This document shows, in pieces, positions 34,447 through 50,163 of a stretch of 64,000 bases of DNA. Origin of the DNA: Candidatus Gordonibacter avicola (GTDB lineage Bacteria > Actinomycetota > Coriobacteriia > Coriobacteriales > Eggerthellaceae). The notes under the pieces were generated by a model. The model was not told the DNA's origin. It did not search any database and saw only the letters and a program-made list of their open reading frames with translations. Each line of letters begins with the position of its first letter. The first letter of the stretch is position 1. Both the position numbers and the translations under genes were made by a program. The stretch lies in assembly GCA_019113915.1 (NCBI GenBank), contig DXGM01000003.1, positions 1-64,000 on the forward strand, read 5' to 3'.

Positions 34447-34636
34447 TATAGAGTGCCCAATAAGTTTTCAAGCAGGGATATCCTTGGCATTGTTTACATA
34501 TTGTTCTGAAAGAACAGGGGCTTGCTTTATGAAAGACGCCCCTTCCCAAATTGCCTCCAAAGACTATACTGTTTATTATATTCATCATTTTGAGGAATAG
34601 AGGTCTTGCCCATTACTGAGAGCGAGGTTGGGAAAA

Positions 34637-37600
34637 ATGCTGCGCAGTTTCGGAAATAGTCTGCTAGGCAAGAGAGTTGCTATAGCGACGCTTGCACTTG
34701 CTCTTGCTGTTGGCATGGTTCCTGTCTCGACGTCAGAAGCTCGCGACGTTGAAAATCTCGCGGGGGGGGGGGGCTTTTAAGTAGCAAATCTGTTGCGGAT
34801 GGTGTGACGCGGTTTCACGAACAAGCATCCGCCAGTGTTTCACTCGCTCAGTATTCTCAGCCTGCCGCTGGCGAGATTCGTTCCTGTGGTTTTACATTCC
34901 GCGTGCTTCCTGATGCGGAGTCTGTTGCGTTGGTGGGTTGGTATGGCGAAACGCTTGAAAGCGATATCGTCATTCCCTCCTGTGTTTCGAGCGGTTCTGA
35001 TTCATACGCCGTTACAATAATTGGAGATCCCGCAAAACAAAACCTTTTCGAGGGCGCACCTATCGAATCCATTTCTATTCCAGCTTCTGTGGAAACTATC
35101 TTGGATGGAGCGTTTTCAGGATGTTCTTCGCTCTCATATATCACTGTTTCATTGGATAACGAAAACTATGCGTCCTACGATGGTATGCTGTTCTCGAAGG
35201 ACCTTTCAAACCTTCTGTTCACTCCCGAAGGTAAAAAGGGTGTTGCCTATATTCCTAGCCAAACTGTCTTAGTTGCGGCTGAAGTTTTTTCCCAGTGTTC
35301 GGGACTTATCTCCGTCGAAGTAGAAAAGAGTAGCGTCGCCTTCTCTTCCTGGAATGGCATTCTTTACTCAAAGAATAGGGAAAACCTCGTAGCATGCCCT
35401 CCGGGCGTAGGTGTTTCGGCGGTAATTGCTACGCAGACACATGCGATTGCCCCGGGTGCTTTTAGTGGATGCTCTCTTACATCAATTATTGTATTGGGTG
35501 ATTTGAATGAGATTTCTCCCGAGGCGTTTGACAATGCTTCTAAAGACACAGTTGTGGCTCTTGTGGGCTCGGAAGGCCATCAAGAGGCAAGGGGGATTTG
35601 GGAAGATGCCGGCTTTTCGCGGTTCTCCAACTCTGCATTACCAGGCGATCTCTCCTTGCAAGGTCGTTTTAAAGAAAGTGATTCCACGGCCGAGAATAAG
35701 GGTCTCACTAGTTATGGCCTTTCATTTACGTTGCTGGATGATTACACCCTTTCCGTTTCATGGATGGGTCCGGGTGAGCCTGCCGACGATTTGATAATTC
35801 CTGCTTCGGCTCAAGTTGGAAGCGTTTCCTATCGTGTCTCATCTATTGCTCCCAGAGGTTTTGCTGGGTTGTTGTCACTTGAATCTCTCAAGCTCCCTGA
35901 GGGTATAGCATTGATCGGAGAGGGCGCGTTTGCGGGCTGCTCGAACTTGGCTTCTATTGAATTCTCTCAGGGTCTGATGGAGATTGGGGAGCGAGCTTTC
36001 GAAGCAACGGCACTTGCAGAGGTGTGGATTCCAGACTCGGTTGTGGCTATCAAATCTCGCGCTTTTGCATCCTGTAATTTACTTACGCGTGTTGTCACCC
36101 TCGGTTCACCAGAGGTTGCAGTTGATGCTTTTGTTGAGTGCTCGAATGTTTCACTCTATTGTCCGCAAGGGTCCGAAGAAGTTTGGAAATCGACCGAATT
36201 GACAGCGGGTAGTACTGTTCAGCCTTTCGGAATTGAACTTGCTAAAGAGTCACTTATTCTTATGGTTGGTGAAGAGGGAGATCTTTTCGAAGGAGCATTT
36301 CTTGAGCTACCCGAAAACGTCGAAATTATCTATTCTTATGCTGCTGCGCCCTTGTCAATTGACGCCGGTACGACACGAGGGAAGGCTCAGGGTTCGACTG
36401 ATGTTGTAGTAACGCTTGCACTGGATGGGATTGAAATTGCCCGCAGCTCACGATTTGTTGAGGTACTACCAAGTTCACAGGCAACAACCGAAACCATTTC
36501 AGTAAGAAATTCATCCCTTTTACCGTCGGCTTATCTCATTAGCGCTCGTGCTGTTCAACTCAGCGTTACGGCTCCTGTTGTGGTGACGTTTGGAGACGGG
36601 GAGGGGTATGACGTCGCTAATCCAACGGCGAGTGTAACTTCAAGCAGTCAGTTCGAAAATTATTCGGATTTTCCAGTTGCTATGGAAAGCCTCACCTGTG
36701 TTGACGCTGGTGCTACTGAAGTGCTTGAGGCGAAAGCAGACGCTTCGGATATCACTGCACAGAACCTGTTTAGTCTCTATCCGAAAAAAGATGATTCTAA
36801 AGCTATTTCTTTTGGCCTTGGTCCTACGGTCAGCAGTGTACAACCTGGTCAGGGTGATTTTGTTATAGCTTCTAACAGTTCGCTCGAATGCACCTATCGC
36901 TTAAATCTGAATAACGCGAGCGTAAAGGTTGGGGCTGCCGATTACGGTATGAGTGTCAAACCCCTTGCTACTGTTTCATATATGTTTAAACGAGATGGCG
37001 GGGGTGGCACTGAAGAGGATGTTTTCTATCTCAAAGACTCGAAATCGGGAGTTGTGTATAGCATTGCTGACGTGAAAACTCACGCTAACAGTATTGCGGA
37101 GTATGGAAGCGAGTCTCCCTATTACCTTATGTACGCTGAATACCTTGCAGACGAAACTGCTTATGAATGCAAGACCGTTTGGAACAAAGTTGCGTACGAT
37201 GTTCGTCTTGTTGGCATCAATCATGACATTTTGACGACCCCTGTTGATAGGAGAACAAAGGCTGGCCTCACTTTCCAATTTGTCAATCTTCTCGAATCAA
37301 TATATCCCATGAACGGTTCAAACTCCAATTCGGGGGGATGGGGTTCGAGCGCATTGCATGCAAGTATGAACGATGGCGAGATTTGGGATATGGTTCCATC
37401 CGAACTTCGAGACGCACTTGTTCAGGTCGAGAAAAGCTATGGCAGTGAAAGCACTTCTACCAGCTCTTCGGTCAGCGTTTCTCATGACACACTCTTTCTC
37501 ATGACCTATTACGAATACACCGGAGCGGTATTTGATGGATGGTCGAAGTATCGTTGGGTTACAGAAGAAGGCTATCGTTATGAGTACTATCAAAATAAAC

Positions 37601-37803
37601 CCATTCAGACAAGCGGCCCTAATAGCTTGATGGAGAAAGGGAAGCAATTGACACCGGATGATAATACAAGTTGGTGGATGCGTTCAGTCCGGCCAAACTT
37701 CCCAGGTGATTTTATGGGAGTGTACATCAATGGTGACCTGGGTCTGAGCGGAACACGTTCAGCGTCTACGCCCTGTGGCGTGTGTCCCTGTTTCTGCTTC
37801 TGA
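34637..37803 (+). CDS. BspA-like leucine-rich-repeat surface protein, phase-variable by a poly-G tract (out of frame here)
   Basis: ATG 34637 starts a classic signal peptide (KRVAIATLALALAVGMVPVS, then ARD). The frame runs into 12 consecutive G at 34762-34773 and stops at TAA 34778-34780. The body resumes in another frame (from about 34774) and is open to 37803. With 10 or 13 G the two join into one protein of roughly 1,055 residues. The body has two blocks of LRR_5 repeats (IESISIPASVETILDGAFSGCSSL; LKLPEGIALIGEGAFAGCSNL), beta-rich linkers, and a C-terminal DUF6273-like lectin-type domain ending SASTPCGVCPCFCF. No LPXTG is seen. Codon use is AT-rich, unlike its neighbours, suggesting transfer. 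A sequencing error in the G run is the alternative. Confidence 0.75.
34762..34773. repeat. 12-base poly-G tract, slipped-strand phase switch
   Basis: This is the longest single-base run I noticed in the window. It sits directly after the signal-peptide region of a surface-protein gene, where +1 or -2 changes restore the frame. Confidence 0.75.
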
Positions 37804-37821: not shown

Positions 37822-38694
37822 ATGGGCACTGCATTTATCATCAAACGAGCAACAAGAGAAAAAGCACTTTGCATAATGAAAGTGCTCATGGCTTTTATTG
37901 TTGTGGCATGTTTGTTGATGTTGACTGTACCGAGAAGCGCCTATGCCAATGCTTCGCCAGGGAAAACACAGCTGGGCTTGCGTATTACCGACTCATCGAA
38001 ATCCCAAGGGTCGGCTGAGGATGGTCAGCCAGGGTCAACCTTGCTTGGCATCCGCGTCACGACGTCTTATGTTTCTGTGTGTGTTCAGTTTGCTAGTAAC
38101 GGAGGCTCCGAAGTAGAATCTCAGACAATTCGAAAAGGCGATCAGGCTGTCGAGCCGGCAATACCACAGCGCGACGGATACACGTTCTCTGGCTGGTTTT
38201 CAGATGCTCTTCTCACGGAACGGTATGACTTCGGTTCTGCAGTTGCGGGGGATATGGTGCTCTATGCAAAGTGGGATGCCGTTATCTCGTGCAAGGTTCC
38301 AGCTGCGGCCGAAATACTGATTGACGCGACGGGTCGGATATCCAGCGAGAGCATGTCTTTTACGTCTTCATCAGTTGTGCCCTTGGAGATAAGTGGAGCC
38401 GTTAGTTCTGTGCGAAGTGGAGCCTCTTTGCTCATACCTCACGATACTGATAGAGCTGCTGTTCAAATTGTACTTACTCCCGATAAAGAAGGGACCAATG
38501 AGGTGATGGTGCCCTTGGACACAGCGGGCAAGGTAGTAGCACTTGGCTTCGTTATTCCGGAGCGTCAAGGCGACCAGTTGGGCGCGCTTTCCGTCTCTTT
38601 TGGATTATCTTTGCCCCAGAGTGCGAGTATATCTTATGTTGTTAACCCTCTTGAAATTTCAGCGGTAGAGTATGTTGTAAAGATTCTCGAATAA
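37822..38694 (+). CDS. Secreted protein with InlB-type (Listeria-Bacteroides) repeat
   Basis: A protein of about 290 residues with a signal peptide (KVLMAFIVVACLLMLTVPRSAYA). One Flg_new/InlB-B repeat follows at about residues 85-150, recognised by SNGGSEVESQTIRKGD, DGYTFSGWFSD and MVLYAKWD. The C-terminal beta-rich domain is not recognised. The start is uncertain: ATG 37822, TTG 37804 and ATG 37876 are all in frame and none has a strong ribosome site. It is directly downstream of the LRR protein with similar AT-rich composition, so the two probably form one surface-protein unit. Confidence 0.65.
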   Translation: MGTAFIIKRATREKALCIMKVLMAFIVVACLLMLTVPRSAYANASPGKTQLGLRITDSSKSQGSAEDGQPGSTLLGIRVTTSYVSVCVQFASNGGSEVESQTIRKGDQAVEPAIPQRDGYTFSGWFSDALLTERYDFGSAVAGDMVLYAKWDAVISCKVPAAAEILIDATGRISSESMSFTSSSVVPLEISGAVSSVRSGASLLIPHDTDRAAVQIVLTPDKEGTNEVMVPLDTAGKVVALGFVIPERQGDQLGALSVSFGLSLPQSASISYVVNPLEISAVEYVVKILE

Positions 38695-50065: not shown

Positions 50066-50163
50066 TGGCGGAGACGTGTGCGAATCGAACGCACCCGAGA
50101 CGTTCTGCACGCCCCGCAACGGCTTTGAAGGCCGCGGGATCCACCAGGAATCCTTCCATCTCC
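50066..50163 (-). tRNA. selC: tRNA-Sec (anticodon TCA)
   Basis: Read on the minus strand it is 98 nt including the encoded CCA. It has a GGAGATG/CGTCTCC acceptor stem, an anticodon stem-loop with CTTCAAA (UCA anticodon), a long variable arm (TTGCGGGGCGTGCAGAACGT region), and a T-loop GGTGCGTTCGATTCGCACAC. The length and the long extra arm are hallmarks of selenocysteine tRNA. It lies 128 bp downstream of selB on the same strand, completing selA-selB-selC. Confidence 0.95.

Follow-up and report, generated by a model that had tools for sequence, protein, structure and literature searches.

Homopolymer phase variation is already well known, and it is the genes with two tracts in series, together with the overlap with a retroelement, that are unusual in the system described here. 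The poly-G and poly-C contingency loci of Campylobacter and Neisseria (PMC6321876, PMC5953494) share with it long G or C runs in surface-related genes, an on/off state that depends on frame, and mixed phases across a whole repertoire. They belong, however, to unrelated hosts and gene families, whereas here a single LRR protein family carries the tract repeatedly at two fixed sites. The nearest actinobacterial precedent is provided by the sortase-pilus G-tracts of B. breve UCC2003 (bbr_0113, bbr_1889; PMC9187656), likewise a gut actinobacterium; the nearest named relatives of the present host are gut commensals. A mixture of G11 and G12 was obtained from a single colony for the B. breve pilus genes (PMC9187656). 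In the pilus operon, as at the present locus, an intragenic tract (G11/G12) splits the first surface-protein gene into two ORFs, and reading of the second depends on tract length. The B. breve system comprises two pilus operons with measured population mixtures, whereas that described here comprises about twenty paralogous LRR/SLH genes known from assembly sequence, some of which, unlike the pilus genes, carry two tracts in series. BspA-like LRR_5 surface proteins have in common with the present protein the PF13306 match and a preceding signal peptide; the latter differs in its proposed poly-G switch, a predicted C-terminal lectin-like domain, and the lack of an identified anchor motif. Within the same bacterial family, the capsule clusters of Eggerthella lenta (PMC13174815) are reported to vary in phase by reversible megabase inversions, not by homopolymer slippage. 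No description of homopolymer switching in Eggerthellaceae was found in the open-access literature searched, and to that extent the assertion of the initial annotation that poly-G switching is not a described theme in this family holds.

The window is the whole 64,000-nucleotide stretch of DNA that was analysed. Its G12 tract, the proposed switch, occupies positions 34762-34773 of the plus strand, directly 3' of the signal-peptide codons of a large surface-protein gene, exactly where the initial annotation had placed a run of 12 G. The leader, read from the ATG at 34637 as MLRSFGNSLLGKRVAIATLALALAVGMVPVSTSEARDVENLAGGGGF, passes into the tract and ends at TAA (34778-34780), so that the ORF at 34637..34780 (+) would represent the OFF product. 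Its signal peptide, judged visually and from its resemblance to the leaders of paralogues, has a positive n-region, a hydrophobic stretch (VAIATLALALAVGMVPV) and a likely cleavage site near SEA-RD. Two weak sigma-70-like promoter candidates (TTCCCA-16-TATACT and TTGCCT-17-TATTAT) lie at 34543..34579 (+), about 60 nt 5' of the ATG, and are candidates only, such sites being no more numerous in the region than chance would give. The BspA-like body (34774..37803, +) forms an uninterrupted frame of 1,009 codons that starts at 34774 and has only its terminal stop, at 37801-37803, while the remaining two frames across the same span contain 33 and 69 stops. It matches Pfam LRR_5 (PF13306) with an E-value of 2.6e-33 and 115 bits, against a curated cut-off of 27.7. 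Two codon bases precede the tract and the body follows it directly, hence leader and body are in frame if n = 1 mod 3: they are joined at n = 10 or 13 and out of frame at n = 11 and 12. The gene is therefore out of phase in the assembly, and the frame arithmetic, the LRR_5 match and the TAA at 34778 bear out the earlier claims that an LRR body of roughly 1,000 residues is out of frame and that 10 or 13 G would restore a single open frame. The count of 12 is taken from a single draft assembly of 49 contigs.

The window body is 41-47% identical to nine paralogues with G-tracts, and its nearest named homologue is found in Enteroscipio rubneri. Searches of a plasmid collection with the window gene, and of viral contigs for the tract motif and the protein family, gave no match. 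The C-terminal domain of the body (37003..37800, +), ending in ...GVCPCFCF, was modelled with AlphaFold (pLDDT 73, pTM 0.77). With the VIA aligner, the highest Z score of the model was 11.3, to the IgA-peptidase chain 9qa6, with weaker scores to the Treponema variable protein 2y3c (4.4) and to rhodocetin (3.9); a Foldseek search with the same model returned no significant fold match. A C-type-lectin-like fold is likely on the basis of this model, and we infer a role of the window protein as a ligand-binding surface protein. With PF19789 (DUF6273), the paralogue on contig C28 scored over the cut-off at 44.2 bits and the window protein below it, though both align end to end.

Long G-runs are in large excess in the 3.08-Mb host genome. 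When the window's own run-length decay is extrapolated to 3.08 Mb, about 0.3 runs of at least 11 G are expected against 34 observed, and about 7 runs of at least 9 G against 45 observed; for runs of at least 12 G the expectation is about 0.06. Many G-runs in complete relatives are intergenic or near promoters rather than within genes, so genome-wide counts alone are no proof of coding switches. Several contigs of the host terminate at G-runs, and its three runs of at least 14 G are all G14 runs at contig ends (C13, C17 and C24; L001-L003), which may be breaks in long tracts or read-end artefacts of two-colour sequencing. These breaks and terminal runs indicate that the assembly struggles at G-runs and that single counts may be off by one, which at a single locus would alter the phase call and leave the pattern unaffected. 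Some further G-runs concern other kinds of genes. In the host genome (G000), a G11 lies in frame within an ORF resembling a GHKL-type histidine kinase fusion (C49:35998, L064) and a G10 at the start of an EAL-GGDEF-PAS protein (C49:90068, L065); both are possible switches of signalling genes. In the congeners G002 (L166:2913 and L166:8961) and G001 (L196:10800), G-runs interrupt or precede ORFs that by eye resemble those of glycosyltransferases and sugar transferases, and could vary surface glycans. Very long G-runs (12, 18, 33 and 14) are clustered in the single-contig genome G007 (L148:3278-3381).

Within genes for secreted LRR or SLH proteins, 25 tracts of 10 to 13 G were identified, 16 at one site and 9 at another, the products including LRR_5, Flg_new and SLH proteins. 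Site 1 follows the signal peptide directly, typically in the context ...SENL(R)-Gn-LSEP, and is occupied at C2:26782, C5:14543, C16:34762 (the window tract), C19:6526, C19:16118, C23:14209, C25:19131, C26:685, C27:7696, C28:56767, C28:140664, C39:307, C45:99057, C47:128231, C47:138134 and C49:33934. Site 2, in an LRR motif (YTVTTLKNLAGGGAF; YxVTxLKxL-Gn-AF), follows site 1 at a distance of about 310-400 bp and is occupied at C2:26471, C5:14233, C10:5, C16:255166, C18:299, C27:7297, C27:171697, C45:317 and C47:128631. Both sites occur in one contig-internal gene on C2, C5, C27 and C47. The number of genes is about twenty (about 17 to 21), as some pieces at contig ends may be halves of one gene. 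The paralogous tracts are in part inherited copies rather than independent events; the flanks at C16, C23, C28:56767 and C49 do not follow the common motif, suggesting that tracts arose separately several times.

The phases of these tracts, called from chosen start codons, are mixed: 10 of 25 are in frame (site 1 on C5, both on C19, C26 and C49; site 2 on C5, C16, C18, C27:171697 and C45) and 15 are out of frame. If phase runs freely, one third of the tracts should be in frame, and P(>=10) is 0.30 on the assumption of independent tracts, which holds only in part for paralogues. Ordinary coding of a poly-glycine run was rejected in view of these mixed phases, the probability being about 1e-9 if 90% were in frame. 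Among the contig-internal genes with two tracts, both sites are in frame only in C5 and both out of frame in C2, C27 (7696/7297) and C47 (128231/128631). Reading in a wrong frame terminates within about 1-20 codons. These observations bear on a bypass at expression, by which RNA-polymerase slippage or ribosomal frameshifting would yield a fixed full-length fraction at any n and the tract would merely set the level. Long homopolymers are generally slippery for polymerases and the tract is long and uninterrupted, but such a bypass predicts neither lengths scattered between 10 and 13, about a third of them in phase, nor the missing conserved length across genera, and it must contend with the tight stops in both wrong frames; it is considered unlikely. 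The phases bear also on an assembly or sequencing error, in which case the true window tract would be 10 or 13 and the protein constitutive. This is a draft assembly with several contigs that break off at G-runs, the three terminal G14 may be read-end artefacts, and sequencing trouble at G-tracts was reported in the B. breve study (PMC9187656). Error of this kind is nevertheless very improbable, as 15 of 25 tracts would have to be wrong, tracts are also present in single-contig genomes and out of phase at homologous sites elsewhere, and a long run at the site persists even with the count off by one.

The homologous sites of other genera were located with a family profile, by which 18 of 138 Eggerthellaceae genomes were found to encode homologues. 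Tracts of G8-G11 occupy the same two sites in at least four other genera of the family, five in phase and five out. The genome G111, assembled in two contigs, contains a full-length homologue in which the signal peptide is followed by two runs, G11 and G10, and which is out of phase, as well as a long LRR protein with G11 in phase and another full-length homologue that is tract-free. Runs of 9-11 are found at the site 2 position in G060, G020, G104 and G077, about 130-250 codons into the open stretch, and a G8 at site 1 in G090. The congener G001, assembled in one contig, carries an out-of-phase G11 after ...DSENLA (L189), followed by a frame of 1,922 codons. A tract motif pattern searched over 40 relatives recovered the host's own genome only; the pattern was too strict and missed L189 in G001. 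The existence of tract-free homologues indicates that the glycine run is dispensable, and a switch under maintenance would be expected to show mixed phases at one position in different genera, as seen here.

The bodies of out-of-phase genes are open over about 900-3,000 codons. Among ten family members, pairwise dN/dS is 0.12-0.26 (about 0.2), with no visible rise in out-of-phase compared with in-phase genes, and these comparisons support purifying selection on out-of-phase bodies. For the window gene alone the evidence of selection is weaker than for the family, as synonymous saturation affects eight of its nine comparisons with paralogues; the ninth gives dN/dS 0.21 at dS 2.5. Bodies of this kind are expected of genes that are on often enough, and not of genes that are permanently lost. 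The out-of-phase copies might otherwise be genes in decay, or silent cassettes from which gene conversion supplies sequence to a few expressed copies, as might be proposed from the large paralogous family, the variable C-termini and the contig breaks near tracts, such as repeats produce. Yet the bodies are without stops, dN/dS is about 0.2 in out-of-phase copies too, those copies that could be followed to the 5' end carry a start and signal peptide of their own, and decaying genes are not expected to be broken at the tract alone, so that the probability of decay or donation is very small.

MutS (PF00488) was detected in none of 119 genomes of the bacterial family and NucS (PF01939) was not found in the host genome, control genomes giving positive results. 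A background that lacks the two known mismatch-repair routes agrees with instability of homopolymers, as context rather than proof. Phase variation by slippage, as claimed in the initial annotation, is the reading best supported by the paralogues with mixed tracts of 10-13, the intact and selected bodies, the sites in other genera and the absence of detectable mismatch repair. It is thus highly probable, from sequence evidence, that the G12 tract acts as a slipped-strand on/off switch within a phase-variable repertoire of surface proteins. Slipped-strand mispairing in replication would add or remove Gs; with 10 or 13 of them the signal peptide would be in frame with the LRR/lectin-like body of 1,009 residues and the protein would be secreted, while at other lengths translation would end within a few codons. 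Genes with two tracts in series would be on only when both are in frame, and with about twenty secreted LRR/SLH genes switched in this way the subset on display would differ from cell to cell. Variation of tract length in the population, switching of the surface protein and a benefit through immune, phage or adhesion heterogeneity are the parts of this slippage model that we infer.

One gene of the family is in addition a target of a diversity-generating retroelement, in the region C28:56767-64109 of the host genome (L055), which encodes a reverse transcriptase (RVT_1, C28:63222-63821). A template repeat at C28:62522-62663 matches the 3' end, or variable repeat, of the LRR gene with a G10 tract at C28:56767-59861. 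The two differ at 11 of 142 bases and all 11 mismatches fall at template adenines (chance about 4e-7), a pattern by which this gene is identified as a target of the retroelement. It is homologous to the window gene (47%). The window gene itself was rejected as a target, having no match to the C28 template, which closely matches only the C28 gene. There is about an even chance of a broader scheme, in which Eggerthellaceae without mismatch repair would maintain a large LRR/lectin-like contingency repertoire with recurrent origin of poly-G at two fixed points, behind the signal peptide and within a glycine motif of the LRRs, serial switches in several genes and at least one switched gene also rewritten by a retroelement, display and binding sequence being varied independently. 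If the surface is such a phase-variable repertoire, many surface states are pooled in strain-level tests of colonisation, immune recognition or phage sensitivity, and more than half of the switched genes would be labelled as broken by standard annotation. The system would also offer an actinobacterial model of slippage without MutS or NucS, and a retroelement target under a homopolymer switch.

Downstream of the window gene is a gene for a secreted protein with a Flg_new repeat (37876..38694, +), its start codon chosen by signal-peptide fit, which opens with a second signal peptide. The arrangement of an LRR gene with a secreted-protein gene behind it is found at C28 as well. The downstream gene is probably co-transcribed with the window LRR gene, and its expression may depend on the G12 switch via polarity. 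A hairpin with a stem of 8-9 bp at 37863-37887 extends over its likely ATG (37876) and could mask the start of the gene. Elsewhere in the window, a tRNA-Sec gene was identified by ARAGORN at 50066-50163 on the minus strand.
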